The notes under the pieces: model-generated
What the model was told of the DNA's origin: nothing
Seen by the model: only the letters and a program-made list of their open reading frames with translations
Database searches by the model: none
From: Myxococcota bacterium
GTDB lineage: Bacteria > Myxococcota_A > UBA796 > CAJQPC01
Reading direction: 5' to 3'
Length of the DNA: 54,338 nt
Assembly: GCA_023150845.1 (NCBI GenBank)
Contig: JAKLKD010000025.1
Coordinates: 1-54,338 of the forward strand
In this document: positions 31,065-44,052 of the stretch, in pieces
Layout of the letters: the number at the start of each line of letters is the position of its first letter
How positions within the stretch are numbered: the first letter of the stretch is position 1
Made by a program: the position numbers and the translations under genes

Positions 31065-34000
31065 ATGAAGACCCGCACCGGACGTCGCGCGCTGCGCGCC
31101 GCCGCTTTGCCCGCGACCCCGCTCCTCGTCCTGCTGATGATGCCATCGGTCGTGAGCGCCGCGGGGGACGGCACGCTGACCGTCACCGCCTCAGGGACGG
31201 TCGTGAACGCCTACGCCGTCGTCGACCGCGACGTCAGCGCGGGCTCGACCTCGGTGCGGGTGAGCGACATCAACGACCTCGACTCCCCGGCCACGGGCAT
31301 CTTCGCGACGACGGACCTCGCCGCGGGGGACCTGGTCCTCATCGTGCAGATGCAGGGCGCGAGCTACACCTCGACGAACACGCTCAGCTTCGGCGAGGTC
31401 ACCGCGCTCAACGGCGCGGGCACCTATGAGCTCGCCGAGGTCGCGAGCATCTCCAGCCGCACGATCACCCTCTCCACCGCCCTGGTGAACGCTTACGACG
31501 CCGATGACCACGTTCAGCTCGTCCGGGTGCCCCGCTACGAGTCGGTGACGGTGAACTCCGGCGCCTCGATCACCGGCGAGCCCTGGGACGGCGACATCGG
31601 CGGCCTCGTCGTGATGAGCGTGAGCGGCGACCTCACCGTGAACGGCACCATCGACGCGAGCGGCATCGGCTTCCGCGGCGGCGTGGACGACAACTCCTCG
31701 GGCAGCACCTCCACCTCGACGGCCAACACCTACTACTACGACAACGCCGAGGCCGACGGCGGCGAGAAGGGGGAGAGCATCGGCGGCAGCGGCGACGACT
31801 ACGACGCCAACAACTGGCTCTATGGGCGCGGCGCCATCGCCAACGGCGGCGGCGGCGGCAACTCCCACAACGCCGGCGGCGGCGGCGGCGCCAACGGCGA
31901 CAACGGCCAGACCTGGACCGGCCAAGGCGTGATGAACACCGCCTCGGGCTGGAAGCTCGACCCCGGCTACATCGCCGCGGGCGGCCCCACGAACAGCTCC
32001 GGCGGCGGGCGCGGCGGCTACACCTACGGCGCCAACAACGCCGACGCCTTGACCGTCGGGCCGAGCAGCTCCTCCTGGGGCGGCGACGGCCGCGATGAGG
32101 TCGGCGGCCTCGGCGGTCGGCCTGTGGACCACGTCCCCCTCAACCGCCTCTTCCTCGGCGGCGGCGGCGGCGCGGGCGACGGCAACAACGGCTACGCGGG
32201 CGCCGGTGGCGCGGGCGGCGGCGCCGTGCTCCTGTTCGTGCAGGGTGACCTCACGGGCAGCGGCTCGGTGAACGTCGATGGTGAGGCCGGTGAAGACGCC
32301 GCGTCGAAGGGCCTCAACGGCCGCGACGGCCCCGGCGGCGGCGGCGCGGGCGGCAGCTTCATCCTCGTGGCCGACGGCGCCTCCGGGGTGAGCGTCTCGG
32401 CGGACGGCGGCGGCGGCGGCTACCAGTGGATCGCGAACAGCGAGTCCGAGGGCCCCGGCGGCGGCGGCGGCGGCGGCTACGTCGCGCTCCCCACGTCCGT
32501 CTCGCTCACGGTCACGGTCCTGGGCGGCGCGGGCGGCGTCACCGACAGCACCTCGGTCACCGAGTTCGTCGAGAACGGCGCCACCAACGGCGCCACGGGT
32601 GAGCAGGGCACGGCGCCGGACTACCTCGACTTCGGTCTGTGCATGTTCATCTCCTGCGACGCCGACGGCGACGGCCTCGACGACCTGGACGAGTCCGACC
32701 TCGGCACCGACCCCCTGGACGCCGACACAGACGGCGACGGGCTCAGCGACGGCGACGAGGTCAACACCATCGGCTCGGACCCCCTGGACACCGACACAGA
32801 CGCCGACGGCCTCGACGACGGCGAGGAGGTGAACACCGAGGGCACGGACCCCACCGACGCCGACACCGACGATGACGGCCTCGACGACGGCGAGGAGGTC
32901 AACACCTACGGAACCGACCCCCTGAACGAGGACACCGACGGCGAGGGCCTCAGCGACGGCGACGAGGTCAACACCTGGGGCACGAACCCCAACAAACGTG
33001 ACACAGACTCCGACGGCCTCTCGGACTACCGCGAGACGATCACTGAGGGCACCGACCCCAACGACACCGACACCGACGATGACGGCCTCGGCGACGCCGA
33101 CGAGGTCCGCACCTACGGCTCCGACCCCCTCGTCGTTGACACCGACGGCGACGGCTGCGGGGACGGCGACGAGGTCACCGCGGGCACCGACCCGACCGCC
33201 GCGGACACCGACGGCGACGGCCTCGGCGACTGTGAGGAGATCGCGGACGGCACGGACCCCACCGTGGGTGACAGCGACGGCGACGGCATCGACGACGGCG
33301 ATGAGATCGACCTCGGCACCGACCCCGCCGATCCCGACACAGACGGCGACGGCCTCGATGACGGCGACGAGATCGACCTCGGCACCGACCCCACGGACAC
33401 CGACAGCGACGGCGACGGCATCGACGACGGCGACGAGGTCAACAACACCGGCACCGACCCGGCCGACGCCGACACCGACGGCGACGGGCTGGACGACGGT
33501 GAGGAGCTCGACTCCGTCGGCACGGACCCGCTCAACCCCGACACCGACGGCGACGGCCTCGACGACGGTGATGAGCTCGACACCTGGGGCACGGACCCCA
33601 CCGACACCGACACCGACGATGACGGCCTGGAGGACGGCGACGAGGTCAACAACACCGGCACCGACCCCACGGACACCGACAGCGACGATGACGGCCTCGG
33701 CGACGGCGACGAGGTCAACACCATCGGCACCGACCCGGCGAACCCCGACACCGACGGCGACGGCCTCGACGACGGCGTCGAGGTCAACACCACCGGCACC
33801 GACCCGCTGGACACCGACTCCGACGATGATGGGCTGAGCGACGGCGACGAGGTGAACACCATCGGCACCGACCCGCTCGACGCCGACACCGACGATGACG
33901 GCCTCAACGACGGCGACGAGGTCAACGAGCACACGACCGACCCGCTCAACCCCGACAGCGACGATGACTTCTTGACCGACGGCCAAGAGGTCAACGAGAC

Positions 34001-34766
34001 GGGCACGGATCCCCTGGACGAGGACACCGACGACGGCGGGCGCAGCGACGGCGAAGAGGTCACCCGCGACGGCACCGACCCCTTCGATCCCTCGGACGAC
34101 GTGGCCGACAGCGACGACGACGGCCTCACCGACACGGAGGAGATCACCTTCGGCACGGACCCCGCCGACGCCGACAGCGACGATGACGGCCTGCTCGACG
34201 GCGAGGAGGTGTTTGAGGAGGAGACCGACCCGCTCAACCCCGACACCGACGGCGACGGCCTCGTGGACGGTGAGGAGGTGCTCACCGAGGGCACGGATCC
34301 GCTGGACACCGACAGCGACGACGACGGCCTCACCGACGGCGACGAGGTCCTGACCACGGGCACGGATCCCCTCAACCCCGACACCGACGGCGACGGCCTC
34401 ACCGACGGCGACGAGGTGAACACCATCGGCACCGACCCGCTGGACACCGACAGCGACGATGACGGCCTCACCGACGGCGACGAGGTGAACACCCACACCA
34501 CGGACCCCCTCGACGCCGACACCGATGATGGCGGCGTGCCCGACGGCCAAGAGGTGACGGACGGCACGAACCCGCTGGACCCCAGCGACGACGAGCCCGT
34601 CAGTGGTGACACCGGGGAGCCCGACGACACCGGGGACATCGTGGACGACGGCATCGGCCTGCCCAAGGGCGGCGGCGGCATCGCCTGCGCCACGAGCGAG
34701 GCGCCCACGGGCGGCCTGCTCGCGGGGCTCTTGGCCTTGGTCGGCCTCGCCCGGCGCCGTCGGTAG
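31065..34766 (+). CDS. Giant secreted TSP3-repeat protein with MYXO-CTERM-like tail
   Basis: A 1233-residue exported protein. The signal peptide ends near VVSAAG (about residue 32). The N-terminal 500 residues are beta-helix-like and very Gly-rich (GGGGGAGDG, GGGGAGGSF), as in large adhesins. Residues about 532-1175 are about 27 thrombospondin type-3 calcium-binding repeats of 23 residues (DTDGDGLDDGDEVNTIGTDP pattern). The C-terminus (IACATSEAPTGG, then LLAGLLALVGLA, then RRRR) fits a MYXO-CTERM-type sorting tail: Cys, transmembrane segment and Arg cluster. It should be exported and then anchored or released at the surface. GGAG lies 5-6 nt before the ATG. Confidence 0.88.
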   Translation: MKTRTGRRALRAAALPATPLLVLLMMPSVVSAAGDGTLTVTASGTVVNAYAVVDRDVSAGSTSVRVSDINDLDSPATGIFATTDLAAGDLVLIVQMQGASYTSTNTLSFGEVTALNGAGTYELAEVASISSRTITLSTALVNAYDADDHVQLVRVPRYESVTVNSGASITGEPWDGDIGGLVVMSVSGDLTVNGTIDASGIGFRGGVDDNSSGSTSTSTANTYYYDNAEADGGEKGESIGGSGDDYDANNWLYGRGAIANGGGGGNSHNAGGGGGANGDNGQTWTGQGVMNTASGWKLDPGYIAAGGPTNSSGGGRGGYTYGANNADALTVGPSSSSWGGDGRDEVGGLGGRPVDHVPLNRLFLGGGGGAGDGNNGYAGAGGAGGGAVLLFVQGDLTGSGSVNVDGEAGEDAASKGLNGRDGPGGGGAGGSFILVADGASGVSVSADGGGGGYQWIANSESEGPGGGGGGGYVALPTSVSLTVTVLGGAGGVTDSTSVTEFVENGATNGATGEQGTAPDYLDFGLCMFISCDADGDGLDDLDESDLGTDPLDADTDGDGLSDGDEVNTIGSDPLDTDTDADGLDDGEEVNTEGTDPTDADTDDDGLDDGEEVNTYGTDPLNEDTDGEGLSDGDEVNTWGTNPNKRDTDSDGLSDYRETITEGTDPNDTDTDDDGLGDADEVRTYGSDPLVVDTDGDGCGDGDEVTAGTDPTAADTDGDGLGDCEEIADGTDPTVGDSDGDGIDDGDEIDLGTDPADPDTDGDGLDDGDEIDLGTDPTDTDSDGDGIDDGDEVNNTGTDPADADTDGDGLDDGEELDSVGTDPLNPDTDGDGLDDGDELDTWGTDPTDTDTDDDGLEDGDEVNNTGTDPTDTDSDDDGLGDGDEVNTIGTDPANPDTDGDGLDDGVEVNTTGTDPLDTDSDDDGLSDGDEVNTIGTDPLDADTDDDGLNDGDEVNEHTTDPLNPDSDDDFLTDGQEVNETGTDPLDEDTDDGGRSDGEEVTRDGTDPFDPSDDVADSDDDGLTDTEEITFGTDPADADSDDDGLLDGEEVFEEETDPLNPDTDGDGLVDGEEVLTEGTDPLDTDSDDDGLTDGDEVLTTGTDPLNPDTDGDGLTDGDEVNTIGTDPLDTDSDDDGLTDGDEVNTHTTDPLDADTDDGGVPDGQEVTDGTNPLDPSDDEPVSGDTGEPDDTGDIVDDGIGLPKGGGGIACATSEAPTGGLLAGLLALVGLARRRR
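32658..34593 (+). repeat. About 27 tandem 69-bp coding repeats (TSP3 units)
   Basis: The repeat unit encodes about 23 residues with the core D-D-DGL-DGDEV-T-GTDPL. Several units are 22 residues and one near the end is longer (FDPSDDVADSDDDGL). Asp at fixed positions fits the calcium-binding loops of thrombospondin type-3 repeats. Unlike the 138-bp array, unit length is not constant and units are more diverged. Confidence 0.9.
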
Positions 34767-38348: not shown

Positions 38349-41216
38349 TCAGGGCGCGGCGCTCGGCGTCGGCGCGGGGGCGTCCTCCCGACGCCAGCCC
38401 TCCCCGTCCACAAACACGAAGCGCTGGGTAGGCCAATAGGCAAGATCGAGCTTCAAGGTCTTCACCTCGGTCTTGTCCTCTAGGTCTACGAGGGTCAGGC
38501 GCACGGCGTCGCGGTCCTGCTTGTTGTTCACCACGGCCAAGAACGAGGCGAGATCGGGGGTGGGCTGGCCGTCGACCTCGATGATCCGCCGCGTGGGGCG
38601 CAGGCCGTAGCGGTGCGCCGGGCTGCCGTACCAGAACCAGGTGACGTAGACCCCCTCGGGCTCGAAGCCGCGCTGGGAGGCGACCTCCAGGTGCGGGGCG
38701 TGCAACAACATGCCCGCCCACGACACTACCTCGGTGACCCCTTGGCCGCTGAGGCTCGTCGTCTCGACGACGAAGTTTTGCTCCATGCCGTCGCGGAACA
38801 CGGTCAAGGTGACCGAGCCGGCCTGGCAGAGCGCCTCGACCTCATCAAAACGGGTCACCACCTCTTGGTTCACGGCGAGGAGGAGATCCCCGCCCTTGAG
38901 CGCCGCCGCCGCCGGGGTGCCCGCGGTGAGGCGCCCGACGTAGAGCACCTGGCCGCCGGTCTGATCGTGGGCCTGGAGGCGGTCGAGCCAAGGCTCGGGC
39001 AGGCCGCGGTCCCGGGCGTCCGCCAGGGGCAGGCCGTAGAGCTCCACGCCCAAGGAGCGGTAGCTGACCTCCTCACCGGCCTGCAGAGGCTCCACGACGC
39101 TCTGGGCGACCTCGATGGGCAGGCCATAAAACGCCGAGCTGCGCCCGCCGCCCTCGCTCGACGCGAAGGACGCCCAGGTGGCGACCACCCGGCCGCGGCG
39201 GTCGGTGATCGCCCCGCCCACAGACGACAGGCCGTCGCTGAGCGTGAAGATCTCCTGGTTGGCCTCGCGGAAGCTCGGGGGGTCGGGCAAGGGCAGGTAG
39301 AGCGGCGTCACCCGGCCCACCCGGGCGCGCTGGGAGACGACCTGGTGGCTGCCGGTGAGGCCCACCTGGGTTAGCTTGTCGCCGGGCTTGATCTCTTTGT
39401 CGCGCAGCCGGGCGCTCTTGACCGGCGTGGCGCCGATGTCCGCCGGGTCGTACTTCACAACGGCGACGTTGTGCAGCGGGTGGATGCTGACGATCTCCCC
39501 GGGCACCCGTAAGGAGCCCCCGAAGGTCAGCTCCAGCTCACCCAGGCCCACGGGCACGGTGTCACGGTCCACCACGACGAGGCCCCGCTCGGCGTCGACG
39601 ATGATCCCGGCCCCGGTGAAGCGGGTGCTGCTCACGCCCTCGGTGCGGTAAGGCACACGGTACTCGACCATCACCAGAGACCGGCTCAGCCGCCGCTGGG
39701 CGCGGCCGCCGCTGCGCACGAAGCTCGCCTCCCCGGCGGCCTCGGCGAGGGGTTTGGTCGGCGCGGGGCTCGGGGTGCAGGGCCAGCCGCCGGTCAGGTC
39801 GTCGCGCACGCAGCGCTGCATCGGGAACCACAGGCGGTCCACCTGAATCACGGCGACCTGGTCCTGGCGGGGGTCTTGAATGGGGAAGTACCGCACGGGC
39901 ACCCGGGCGCCGTGGGGGTGGGCGGCCAAGGCGGCCTCGACCTCCTCCAAGGTGGACACGGGCAGGCCGTCAATCGCCGTGAGGATCGCCCCCTCGGGGA
40001 TGCCGCCCTCGGTGAGCGCGTAGCCCGTCGCCGCCACATAGACGCCCTTCACCGGGACGCTGTGGTTGCGGGCCTGGTGGTAGCTCAGCTCATTGAGGAT
40101 GCCGCCGCCGAACTCCAGGTAAGCGTCGGGGCTGATGCTGTGCAGGTCGCCGACGCTCAGCGGCACGGTCAAGGTCTGCCCGCCGCGCTCGACGGTGAGG
40201 GTGACCTCGGCGCCTACCCGCTCATCGAGGCGGGCCTCCAGGGGCACGAAGGCGTTGAGGGGGACCCCATCGACGGCGAGGAGCACGTCGCCGGGGCGCA
40301 GCTTGCCGTCCGCCGGGCCGCCGGGCACCACCTCCGACACCACGAGGAGCCCCGTGCCGTCGGGGAAGCCCGCGCGCACCTCCGTCTCGCTCTTCTCCGA
40401 GAGGCCCAGGCGGCGCAGCTCGTCATAGGGCGCGTGGAGGAACACCGTCTGTAGGGTGCCGCGGGTGACGGGCTGCCCGGCCTGGATGAGCGCCAGGGCG
40501 CGCACGACGCGGTCGAGCGGCAGGTAATAGCTCGACGCGGCGTTGCGGCGGCCGCCCGCGTTCAGCGCGACGACCTTGCCCGAGAGGTCGAGCACCGGGG
40601 AGCCCGAGGAGCCCCCGGAGGTGCCCGAGGCGGCCTGGATGTAGAAGGTGTTGAAGTCGTTGTAGGTGTTGTCGCCATAGACCGGCGCCTCGCGGTCCAG
40701 CCGAGCCAAGGTGCCGTCGAGGATGCTGATCTTCTCTCCGGCGTCGTTGCCCACCACCCGCACGTTGACGCCCACCTTGGCCCCGGCCGGGTCCAGCGTG
40801 AGGGGCTTGACCTCCATAAACCGCACCGCGGAGGGGTCGAAGCGGTAGAACCCGAAGTCGTGCACCGGGTCGCGGTAGACGGCCTGGAGCGGGATCTCCT
40901 CGTGGTTGTACAGCACGGCCTCAGCGACGACGGGCCCGGCGTGCACCATGTGCCGGTTGGTGAGGATGAGCCCCCGCTCGGCGTCGACGATGAACCCCGT
41001 GCCCACCGACGACGAGGCCGCCTCGGTGTCGAAGCTGCGGGTGCCCACCACCCGGATGGCCACCACGGAGGGCACGGCCGCCTCTAAGGTGGCCTTCCAC
41101 AGATCCGCCTCAGGCGGCGGCGGCGCCGGGGCCTCGGCGGGCGGCCGACCCTTGGACTGCGCGAAGGCGAGAGAGGGAGCGGCGAGGAGGGCGAAGAGGA
41201 CGATCAGAGCGCGCAT
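38349..41216 (-). CDS. Nma111/DEG7-type double serine protease with PDZ domains
   Basis: A 955-residue exported protein with signal peptide MRALIVLFALLAAPSLAFAQ. The first trypsin-like domain has an intact triad: His89 (LTNRHM), Asp120 (VHDFGF), Ser204 (GGSSGSPV). PDZ-like regions follow at about 270-355 and 365-440. The second protease domain (about 505-700) is degenerate: the three positions read Asp552 (VDRDTV), Asn583 (LHNVAV) and Val666 (SSVGGA). Two more PDZ-like regions end the protein. Order and many exact motifs (VRVVGNDAGEKISIL, TYNDFNTFYIQAA) match yeast Nma111 and plant DEG7 as I remember them. It probably acts in the periplasm. AGGGGG lies 4 nt before the ATG. Confidence 0.88.
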   Translation of the reverse strand: MRALIVLFALLAAPSLAFAQSKGRPPAEAPAPPPPEADLWKATLEAAVPSVVAIRVVGTRSFDTEAASSSVGTGFIVDAERGLILTNRHMVHAGPVVAEAVLYNHEEIPLQAVYRDPVHDFGFYRFDPSAVRFMEVKPLTLDPAGAKVGVNVRVVGNDAGEKISILDGTLARLDREAPVYGDNTYNDFNTFYIQAASGTSGGSSGSPVLDLSGKVVALNAGGRRNAASSYYLPLDRVVRALALIQAGQPVTRGTLQTVFLHAPYDELRRLGLSEKSETEVRAGFPDGTGLLVVSEVVPGGPADGKLRPGDVLLAVDGVPLNAFVPLEARLDERVGAEVTLTVERGGQTLTVPLSVGDLHSISPDAYLEFGGGILNELSYHQARNHSVPVKGVYVAATGYALTEGGIPEGAILTAIDGLPVSTLEEVEAALAAHPHGARVPVRYFPIQDPRQDQVAVIQVDRLWFPMQRCVRDDLTGGWPCTPSPAPTKPLAEAAGEASFVRSGGRAQRRLSRSLVMVEYRVPYRTEGVSSTRFTGAGIIVDAERGLVVVDRDTVPVGLGELELTFGGSLRVPGEIVSIHPLHNVAVVKYDPADIGATPVKSARLRDKEIKPGDKLTQVGLTGSHQVVSQRARVGRVTPLYLPLPDPPSFREANQEIFTLSDGLSSVGGAITDRRGRVVATWASFASSEGGGRSSAFYGLPIEVAQSVVEPLQAGEEVSYRSLGVELYGLPLADARDRGLPEPWLDRLQAHDQTGGQVLYVGRLTAGTPAAAALKGGDLLLAVNQEVVTRFDEVEALCQAGSVTLTVFRDGMEQNFVVETTSLSGQGVTEVVSWAGMLLHAPHLEVASQRGFEPEGVYVTWFWYGSPAHRYGLRPTRRIIEVDGQPTPDLASFLAVVNNKQDRDAVRLTLVDLEDKTEVKTLKLDLAYWPTQRFVFVDGEGWRREDAPAPTPSAAP

Positions 41217-41310: not shown

Positions 41311-41991
41311 TCAGCGTTGAGGCCCCTGCGGCGGGCTCACCGGGGTGAACTGAAGGTCGAACCAGAAGGAGCGAGGGTCGTCGTCGCAGGCGTCCTCGGC
41401 GGGCATGACCCGCTCGTCGGGGCCGCCGACGATGTGGAAGATCTGCGCCTCGTAGTCTTCGTTGTCGGGGGTGGGCAGGGGGAAGTCGCCGATGAGGCTC
41501 ATTGTCCAGTTGAGGTCGGGGGCTTGGAGCTGGTCGGGGAGCAAGAAGAGCACGTCTTCATCCCGACCTCTCCAGGTAATTCGCTCCAGCTTGACGTAGT
41601 CGGGGATTACCTCTGGCTCAATCGTGAGGCCAAAGTATAGTCCACAGTCATAGCCTCGACGCCGAAGGCCACCGGCAGGGTAAAGCGCGCGCTCTGCTGA
41701 TGTCCTGTAGTGAAATCTTTCGTAAGTATTTACATAAAGCTCCCGAAATTCACCCGCGGAATCAAAAATTCGTGAGTCATTTGAATCCCAATCGTATAAC
41801 CACGAGTCTGGTCGAACAAACAGCGCCCCGTCTTGGCCGTCGCTCAGTTCATAGGGCAGCGTGGAGCACTTGCTGGGGCAAGGAGTCTGTAGCTCAATCA
41901 CGTCCACTTGGTAATACAGGTTGGGAAGATACACTGGGCAGTCACAACACCCCGCCAAACCAAGGGCGGGCAGCAGGGCGAGGGCGCGCAT
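41311..41991 (-). CDS. Tandem lipoprotein paralogue 4 of 4
   Basis: A 226-residue lipoprotein, the last gene of a four-member tandem family. The signal peptide is MRALALLPALGLAGC. The shared core is VIELQTPCPSKC near the mature N-terminus, then a divergent centre, then SLIGDFPLPTP, FHIVGGPDE and a terminal FWFDLQFTPVSP. The start at 41991 follows GGAG by 6 nt; an in-frame ATG at 42021 overlaps the previous stop but would place that site inside the coding region. Its centre (41570-41860) is much less GC-rich than the flanks. Function is unknown; the paired Cys (CPSKC) suggest a disulfide. Confidence 0.72.
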   Translation of the reverse strand: MRALALLPALGLAGCCDCPVYLPNLYYQVDVIELQTPCPSKCSTLPYELSDGQDGALFVRPDSWLYDWDSNDSRIFDSAGEFRELYVNTYERFHYRTSAERALYPAGGLRRRGYDCGLYFGLTIEPEVIPDYVKLERITWRGRDEDVLFLLPDQLQAPDLNWTMSLIGDFPLPTPDNEDYEAQIFHIVGGPDERVMPAEDACDDDPRSFWFDLQFTPVSPPQGPQR

Positions 41992-42017
41992 CGTAGGCTC
42001 CGGTGAGGGGATGAGGG

Positions 42018-42641
42018 TCATAGAGCACCGTAGGGTTTGAGCGGGGTGTACTGGAGGTCAAACCAGAACGCCCGTGGGTCATCGGTGCAGGTCCAGCGAT
42101 CTACCTCGATCGGGTCGTTGGGGCGGCCCACGATACGGAAGGTGGCCTCCTCGTAAGCTGGATCGTACTCAGCCTTGGGGAGCGGAAACTCTCCTATCAA
42201 CTCTAGGGTCCAGGAGTCTGCGAGCTCGGGTTGGGCTTGCCAATCCAGCCTCATGAAAGACTCCCATCCGCTGAAACGTCCTGATTTGCTCAGGTCCACC
42301 CAAGACGGTGAGCTATCGGGAAAAACCTGCATCCCGAACCGCAGACGACAGAGATCAGAGCCGACACCCAAATCCGAACTCGGAACGACAATCGCCAACT
42401 CACGGGCGGATAAGTCGGAGTCCTGAAGTCCAGACTCATATGGCGAAAAGAACAACTCCAGGCCAGGCCACAGAATTGGCTCACCGCACCGCCGCGAACA
42501 AGGCGATTGAAACTCCAACACTCTAACTTCGTACAACAGCGTGTTGGGCCCCATAGGAGCCGTCTGAAACTCCGAGATACAAGAAGGGGCGAGCGGCAGA
42601 CCACAGGCGATGAGCACGGCAAGGAGCGTTGGGGCTCGCAT
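42018..42641 (-). CDS. Tandem lipoprotein paralogue 3 of 4
   Basis: A 207-residue lipoprotein, signal peptide ending LPLAPSC. It has the same family motifs: VLEFQSPCSRRC, LRFGMQVFPD, WTLELIGEFPLP, FRIVGRPNDP and FWFDLQYTPLKPYG. Both ends are almost identical in DNA to the neighbouring paralogue at 42668-43291 (a constant offset of 650 bp), whereas the middle differs strongly. The start is the ATG 6 nt after GGAG; an upstream ATG at 42671 overlaps the previous stop. No homologous family was recognised. Confidence 0.72.
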   Translation of the reverse strand: MRAPTLLAVLIACGLPLAPSCISEFQTAPMGPNTLLYEVRVLEFQSPCSRRCGEPILWPGLELFFSPYESGLQDSDLSARELAIVVPSSDLGVGSDLCRLRFGMQVFPDSSPSWVDLSKSGRFSGWESFMRLDWQAQPELADSWTLELIGEFPLPKAEYDPAYEEATFRIVGRPNDPIEVDRWTCTDDPRAFWFDLQYTPLKPYGAL

Positions 42642-42667
42642 CGTCGGCTCCGGTGAGTGGGTGGGGG

Positions 42668-43291
42668 TCATGGAGCACCGTAGGGTTTGAGCGGGGTGTA
42701 CTCGAGGTCAAACCAGAACGCCCGTGGATCATCGGTGCAGGTCCAGCGGTCCACCTCGATGGGGTCGTTGGGGCGGCCCACGATACGGAAGGTGGCCTCC
42801 TCGTAAGCTGGATCGTACTCAGCCTTGGGGAGCGGAAACTCTCCTATCAACTCTAGGGTCCAGGAGTCTGTGAGCTCGGGTTGGGCTTGCCAATCTATTG
42901 CCACGAACGATTCCCACTCGTCGAACCGCCCCGGCCTACTGAGGTCCACCCACAGCGGTGCCTCATCGGGAAGGATCTGCATCCCGAACCTCAAGCGACA
43001 GGAGTCGGAGTTTGTGCCCAACCCAGAGCTTGGTACGCCGATTTTCAGATCGGGTTCTGAGATGTCTGAATCGTGCAACCCAGAATCGTCCGGCAACACT
43101 GACAATACCAGACTGTACCACAAATAAGGCTCGGCACATTTGCGGGGACATGGCGACTGAAACGCAAGAACGTCAATACTATAGCGTAAGGTTTCAACTC
43201 CATTTGGAGGCGCTACTGGCTCCGAGATACAAGAAGGGGCGAGCGGCAGACCACAGACGATGAGCACGGCGAGGAACTTTGGGGCTCGCAT
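42668..43291 (-). CDS. Tandem lipoprotein paralogue 2 of 4
   Basis: A 207-residue lipoprotein of exactly the same length as the gene at 42018-42641. The signal peptide ends LPLAPSC. Motifs are VLAFQSPCPRKC, LRFGMQILPD, WTLELIGEFPLP and FWFDLEYTPLKPYG. The middle third is AT-richer and diverged from its neighbour, while flanking DNA is nearly identical. An upstream in-frame ATG at 43321 overlaps the previous stop. The GGAG ribosome binding site, 6 nt upstream, favours 43291. Confidence 0.72.
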   Translation of the reverse strand: MRAPKFLAVLIVCGLPLAPSCISEPVAPPNGVETLRYSIDVLAFQSPCPRKCAEPYLWYSLVLSVLPDDSGLHDSDISEPDLKIGVPSSGLGTNSDSCRLRFGMQILPDEAPLWVDLSRPGRFDEWESFVAIDWQAQPELTDSWTLELIGEFPLPKAEYDPAYEEATFRIVGRPNDPIEVDRWTCTDDPRAFWFDLEYTPLKPYGAP

Positions 43292-43317
43292 CGTCGGCTC
43301 CGGTGAGAAGGAGGTGA

Positions 43318-44052
43318 TCATCCGCCGTAGGGATTGAGCGGGATGAAGCGAAAGTCGAAGCTGAGCGAGCTCAGGTCGCCTGTGCAGGAGTCGGGGTCGG
43401 GCTCGACGTACTCGTCGGGAGTGCCGATGATGTGGAAGTCTTGTTGGAGGTACTCCGTGAGGTCTTCGCCTCGGGCGGGTATGATGGGCACGTCGCCGAC
43501 AAGCTCGATGCTCCAGCCTGGGGTCTCAGGGCGTCCGCCAGCGTCAGTCTGCATGTTGATCACGGAATCCCACCTGCGCCAGCTAACTCGTTGACTTAGA
43601 GCCAAGAAGTCCACCATGTTGTCCGGTTGCAGCGTGGCACCAAACTGCAGCAGACAGTCAACATGGCGCCCAGGATTGTAATAATCCGATGTGTAATAGT
43701 CCGATGTGTAGTAGATTGCTTTCGGATATTCATCGAGTCCAGTTTCTGGATTCGCAGTATCGTAGGCTTCCGTGGTCGCAAACAACATAAATTGCTCATC
43801 GGAGTTGTGTTCAGGTAGGGTCGTGCAGGCTTCTGGACACGGCGAACGAAACTCCACCACCTCGACTCGAAAGGGCGGACCTAAGACGGGCGTAGACTCA
43901 CACGAGCTGCTCAGAAGAGCAAGAATCGCCAGCGCCACGACCCGGGCGAGACGACCGCGCCGCCGCTTGCCGAGCCCCGCCCCGCCCAGCCCAGACAAAG
44001 GCAAGCGCCGCAGACGCTGCGAGGTTGGGGCAATCAGCGCTCGTGTTGGCAT
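43318..44052 (-). CDS. Tandem lipoprotein paralogue 1 of 4 (promoter-proximal)
   Basis: A 244-residue lipoprotein heading the tandem set. It has a long basic N-region (RLRRLPLSG, KRRRGRLARVV) before the hydrophobic ALAILALLSSSC lipobox. It shares VVEFRSPCPEAC, SIELVGDVPIIP, FHIIGTPDEY and a terminal FDFRFIPLNPYG with the others. A short local repeat, YYTSDYYTSDYYN, is encoded in the AT-richer centre. AGGAG lies 6 nt before ATG 44052, so the long start is real for this copy. The next gene's upstream ATG overlaps its stop by 4 nt. Confidence 0.74.
   Translation of the reverse strand: MPTRALIAPTSQRLRRLPLSGLGGAGLGKRRRGRLARVVALAILALLSSSCESTPVLGPPFRVEVVEFRSPCPEACTTLPEHNSDEQFMLFATTEAYDTANPETGLDEYPKAIYYTSDYYTSDYYNPGRHVDCLLQFGATLQPDNMVDFLALSQRVSWRRWDSVINMQTDAGGRPETPGWSIELVGDVPIIPARGEDLTEYLQQDFHIIGTPDEYVEPDPDSCTGDLSSLSFDFRFIPLNPYGG

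Follow-up and report, generated by a model that had tools for sequence, protein, structure and literature searches.

The window, a 54,338-nucleotide stretch of myxococcotal DNA, contains a large protease gene that an earlier note had described as encoding a full-length protein of the type known as Nma111 in yeast and DEG7 in plants, which raises the questions of whether a bacterium indeed carries this complete design, where the family came from, and whether its inactive second protease domain is ancestral. The published architecture of DEG7 is PD-PDZ-PDZ-PDia-PDZ-PDZ (PMC3473262), and the PDZ_1 domain is found in fungi (PMC6411480) and marks the fungal Nma111 branch, not the mammalian Omi branch (PMC5982838). 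Already in 2018, Klim et al. noted bacterial proteins for which yeast Omi/Nma111 is a closer relative than human HtrA2 (PMC5982838). In the literature that we searched, with subscription papers mostly outside it, we found neither a description of the full tandem architecture in bacteria nor the motifs of the tandem protease in print.

The coordinates given in the earlier note indeed enclose a minus-strand open reading frame of 955 aa, in which a putative signal peptide is followed by domains in the order protease-PDZ-PDZ-dead protease-PDZ-PDZ (Table 1). The active trypsin-like domain, PDZ region, second protease domain, and further PDZ regions that had been proposed were all recovered by Pfam, AlphaFold2, and fold matches, and every motif quoted at the time is present (GNDAGEKISIL, TYNDFNTFYIQAA, GGSSGSPV, LHNVAVVKYDP, and SPAHRYG). 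Pfam detects two Trypsin_2 domains, two stretches of PF12812 (PDZ_1), and several PDZ models; PF12812 scores 80 bits over the whole protein against a cut-off of 28, while the second PDZ_1 match taken alone reaches 26.6 bits in the genome scan, slightly below that cut-off. An AlphaFold2 model of the full protein built with 48 related sequences has a pLDDT of 88.7 and a pTM of 0.86, and its N-terminal half (protease and PDZ1) matches DegP (8f0a; Z 25.0, rmsd 5.2, 293 residues aligned) as well as other HtrA structures. The C-terminal half modeled alone (pLDDT 92.3, pTM 0.90) matches HtrA 8kic (Z 22.8, rmsd 5.0, 286 residues aligned). Both halves of the protein are, as confidently modeled, HtrA folds.

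Table 1. Features of the tandem protease gene, with positions in the window and the basis of each assignment.
Feature	Position	Strand	Basis
Nma111/DEG7-type tandem HtrA protease, 955 aa	38349..41216	-	ORF with ATG start; Pfam; AlphaFold2
Putative Sec signal peptide, residues 1-20 (MRALIVLFALLAAPSLAFAQ)	41157..41216	-	Read from sequence
Active trypsin-like domain, residues 40-245	40482..41099	-	PF13365; fold match DegP 8f0a
Catalytic His89 codon	40950..40952	-	His in 113/113
Catalytic Asp120 codon	40857..40859	-	Asp in 113/113
Catalytic Ser204 codon (GGS-S-GSPV)	40605..40607	-	Ser in 113/113; aligns with DegP GN-S-GG
PDZ domain 1, residues ~265-357	40146..40424	-	PF17820/PF00595; AlphaFold2 model
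PDZ domain 2, PDZ_1 type, residues ~360-445	39882..40139	-	PF12812, 63 bits, above cut-off
Degenerate (pseudo-)protease domain, residues ~505-715	39072..39704	-	C-half AlphaFold2 model; HtrA fold match
Asp552 at His position, second domain	39561..39563	-	Never His in 113 members
Asn583 at Asp position, second domain	39468..39470	-	Asn in 105/113
Val666 at Ser position, second domain	39219..39221	-	Ser in only 3/113
PDZ domain 3, residues ~725-822	38751..39044	-	Pfam PDZ stretches; C-half model
PDZ domain 4, PDZ_1 type, residues ~829-935	38412..38732	-	PF12812 second stretch; C-half model

Alignment of the halves with DegP/DegQ gives H89/D120/S204 as the triad of the first domain, which is invariant in all 113 non-redundant bacterial members, and its spacing of 31 and 83-84 residues (89/120/203-204) matches the 31 and 83 of the Neurospora crassa orthologue (His120/Asp151/Ser234; PMC3434108). 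We note that the GGSSGSP motif (window 40605-40610) holds two neighboring serines, both invariant, and that the choice of the catalytic one depends on the comparison: alignment with DegP points to the second (S204), but the published spacing in N. crassa (151 to 234) would make it the first. For the second domain, the alignment agrees exactly with the replacements by Asp552, Asn583, and Val666 that had been claimed for the three catalytic positions. Across the family, the His position is occupied by Asn (49), Asp (45), Glu (15), Gly (2), or Ala (2) and never by His, the Asp position is mostly Asn (105 of 113, with seven Asp and one Gly), and the Ser position has lost its serine in 110 members and kept it in three. 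With these positions replaced, a functional triad in the second domain is out of the question for every member sampled, and the second half is, as read from the alignments, catalytically dead throughout the bacterial family.

The dead domain has nonetheless been maintained, since random pairs of members still share a mean of 47% identity over it, about as much as over the PDZ domains and compared to 68% over the active domain, and since its DRxTVP and HN motifs are near-invariant. We propose that the bacterial protein is exported to the periplasm, where its N-terminal half would cut misfolded proteins and its four PDZ domains would grip clients or regulate the active site. By analogy to Arabidopsis DEG7 (AtDEG7), the pseudo-protease half might then be an assembly or chaperone platform, so that one polypeptide would unite the cutting and scaffolding modules, both of which DegP obtains from oligomers of identical subunits. 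The main rival to this assembly role is a peptide-sensing one, in which the second half binds clients or peptides and activates the first half as the PDZ domain does in DegS. Such a sensor would fit the conservation of the pseudo-domain and its PDZ domains as well as the substrate-cleft region, which in the alignment with DegP/DegQ appears rewritten rather than deleted, but the sole experimental precedent cited is AtDEG7, whose inactive domain is reported to drive trimerization (cited in PMC3473262). We therefore regard a sensor as unlikely, albeit worth keeping in mind, and retain the assembly platform as the preferred role of the dead half.

The tandem protease is by no means confined to the window. 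Most sampled genomes of the same order carry a full-length collinear homologue, mostly one per genome and with 40-59% identity (96% within the genus), which places the open reading frame far beyond chance. Across the phylum, the PDZ_1 cut-off is passed in 115 of 379 sampled genomes, usually in open reading frames of ca. 950 aa, and in none of 14 well-known control genomes. The genome of the window encodes the family gene once together with four other Trypsin_2 proteins above the cut-off, and single HtrA proteins are present in the same genomes as the tandem protease. A scan of named genomes detected relatives at no fewer than 386 candidate loci, and the 80 kept relatives belong to Myxococcota or "Deltaproteobacteria" and to Gammaproteobacteria (Woeseiaceae, Steroidobacteraceae, and Chromatiales, among others), with some titled only as proteobacteria. 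No full-length relative was found on viral contigs or among PDB chains, nor on plasmids, which gave only DegQ-like half matches. The tandem protease is therefore real here, but it is not peculiar to a single bacterium and is common in these groups of Myxococcota and Gammaproteobacteria. This spread also implies that the design, including its dead half, is older than the groups that carry it.

Gene neighbors, both in the window and at the other loci examined, gave no functional clue and no pointer to protein quality control. Next to the protease gene in the window lie a PF00756 esterase and, on the opposite side, small lipoprotein-like open reading frames. Four tandem paralogous open reading frames of ca. 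217-244 aa with lipoprotein-like N-termini lie at 41311-44052 on the minus strand; they have almost no Pfam match, and a 300-nt stretch shared by the middle two shows 91% identity at a spacing of 650 nt. A separate open reading frame at 31065-34766 on the plus strand encodes 1233 aa with around 20 bacterial TSP3 repeats (PF18884) and probably specifies a surface protein. At about 40 loci, the upstream open reading frames resemble glycine-cleavage genes, with the family identified in one locus; in a gammaproteobacterial case (L078, 1-10079), the protease gene lies between gcvT-gcvH-gcvPA-gcvPB with a PfkB-type kinase gene and an Xaa-Pro dipeptidase gene.

How this bacterial family relates to its eukaryotic counterparts can be judged from shared architecture and from trees of the separate halves. 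AtDEG7 (At3g03380, 1097 aa) has the same domain order with four PDZ domains (PMC3473262), though it resides in the chloroplast stroma whereas the bacterial protein has a putative signal peptide. The Nma111 of fungi (yeast YNL123W and the N. crassa orthologue) differs in being nuclear and has been studied for cell-death roles. HtrA2/Omi combines trypsin-like and PDZ domains as well, but has only one of each and forms a branch apart from yeast Nma111 (PMC5982838).

The yeast Nma111 and AtDEG7 sequences used for alignment and tree building are provisional, unverified versions and not database records, though this AtDEG7 has 1097 residues, as published. Both provisional sequences align with the 955-aa protein over their full length (yeast ca. 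37% identity; Arabidopsis halves 51% and 35%), and their best match to an ordinary HtrA reaches only ca. 60-70 bits compared to ca. 540-750 for family members. Since at least 73 other family members match each of them better than the window protein does, they are not copies of it. PF12812 scores 192 bits in the provisional yeast Nma111, which like the bacterial protein has two PDZ_1 domains, 80 in the window protein, and none in DegP. Differences include a longer linker between the halves in the provisional AtDEG7 and an Arg in the second domain of the provisional Nma111 where bacterial members mostly have Asp, Asn, or Glu. The dead domains of these provisional sequences also align with Asn at the Asp position, AtDEG7 showing HN instead of HD just as the bacterial protein does, and if these sequences are right, the loss of Asp to Asn predates the split between the bacterial and eukaryotic forms.

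In an IQ-TREE analysis under LG+C20+F+G4 that combined both sets of halves with bacterial HtrA, DegP, and DegQ, the N-halves form one clade (99/97), the C-halves another (100/100), and the HtrA/DegP/DegQ proteins a third, separate one (100/99), with the halves of the provisional yeast and Arabidopsis sequences falling into the N and C clades. FastTree agrees on this grouping, but because the outgroup joins the tree at the long branch of the C-halves, little weight should be placed on how the three groups branch relative to one another. The colinearity with Nma111/DEG7 that had been claimed is thus well supported by the published DEG7 architecture, PF12812, and the separate half-clades. The specific affinity to the eukaryotic proteins, for which profile and tree comparisons had been suggested as a check, is indicated strongly but provisionally, in that the unverified sequences match over their full length and fall into both half-clades, while their branch point among the bacteria is not fixed. 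Based on the shared architecture, PF12812, and, provisionally, the unverified eukaryotic sequences, we consider it likely that the protein belongs with the Nma111/DEG7 tandem HtrA proteases as their bacterial orthologue. It would be exported, cut with its N-terminal half, and use its dead half as an assembly platform.

A hydrophobic N-terminus is the rule in this family. The N-terminus of the window protein (MRALIVLFALLAAPSLAFAQS) resembles a Sec signal peptide, in line with the signal peptide proposed earlier, and a simple hydropathy count finds a clear hydrophobic N-terminus in 93 of 109 members. One myxobacterial family (f32) carries the gene in 11 of 29 genomes, most positive genomes being 8-13 Mb in size, and the N-termini that we read are polar (e.g., MNDVSPPTSAPTSAAEAWRRC), so that its members are probably cytoplasmic and the lack of a signal peptide is no eukaryotic specialty. 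We note that loci L041, L046, and L148-L157 (genomes G237, G365, G382, G383, and G386-G392) encode an Nma111-type protease apparently without signal peptide and that these myxobacterial loci are sister to the gammaproteobacterial clade. A single clade of eukaryotes and the signal-less myxobacterial family was rejected (p-AU 0.019, using the provisional eukaryotic sequences).

The eukaryotic forms would then be relatives of the bacterial family that work without export. We tentatively suggest that the ancestor of nuclear and chloroplast Nma111/DEG7 may have been a tandem protease of the bacterial periplasm, of the Myxococcota/Gammaproteobacteria type and with a second half that had already lost its activity, and that signal-less forms may have emerged on more than one occasion, among eukaryotes as well as within one myxobacterial family. 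The reverse direction, with shared ancestry but a transfer from eukaryotes to bacteria that then added a signal peptide, draws on trees that leave the family root unplaced and the provisional eukaryotic sequences without a well-placed branch; it appears improbable given the broad bacterial diversity, with many families of Myxococcota and a separate, supported gammaproteobacterial clade, and given that the nearest outgroup found is bacterial HtrA.

Each half of the protein shares its protease-PDZ-PDZ fold with DegP/DegQ, which however have a single domain set, lack PDZ_1, and reach only ca. 24% identity over one half. That an ordinary DegP/DegQ-type protease was recently doubled in this lineage and resembles Nma111/DEG7 by convergence, the outcome that the earlier note had named as speaking against its proposal, is highly improbable despite the HtrA fold of both halves and the single HtrA proteins in the same genomes, because the halves group by half across phyla instead of pairing within a genome as after a recent duplication, full-length relatives occur in both Myxococcota and Gammaproteobacteria, the protein scores only 163.4 bits against the cut-off of 416.2 for the Do family of DegP/DegQ (TIGR02037), and PF12812 is absent from DegP. 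The second half instead goes back to one ancient internal duplication.

Compared to the observations of 2018, our analysis adds the breadth of the family, the ancestral state of its dead domain, and the signal-less myxobacterial family. The complete Nma111/DEG7 design with its dead domain spans two bacterial phyla, which marks the dead half as an ancient, useful part of the enzyme and no eukaryotic oddity. These proteins offer tractable bacterial systems for the role of a pseudo-protease half in an HtrA enzyme and constitute a concrete, testable bacterial relative of a protease that has long figured in debates on where the cell-death proteins of eukaryotes came from.
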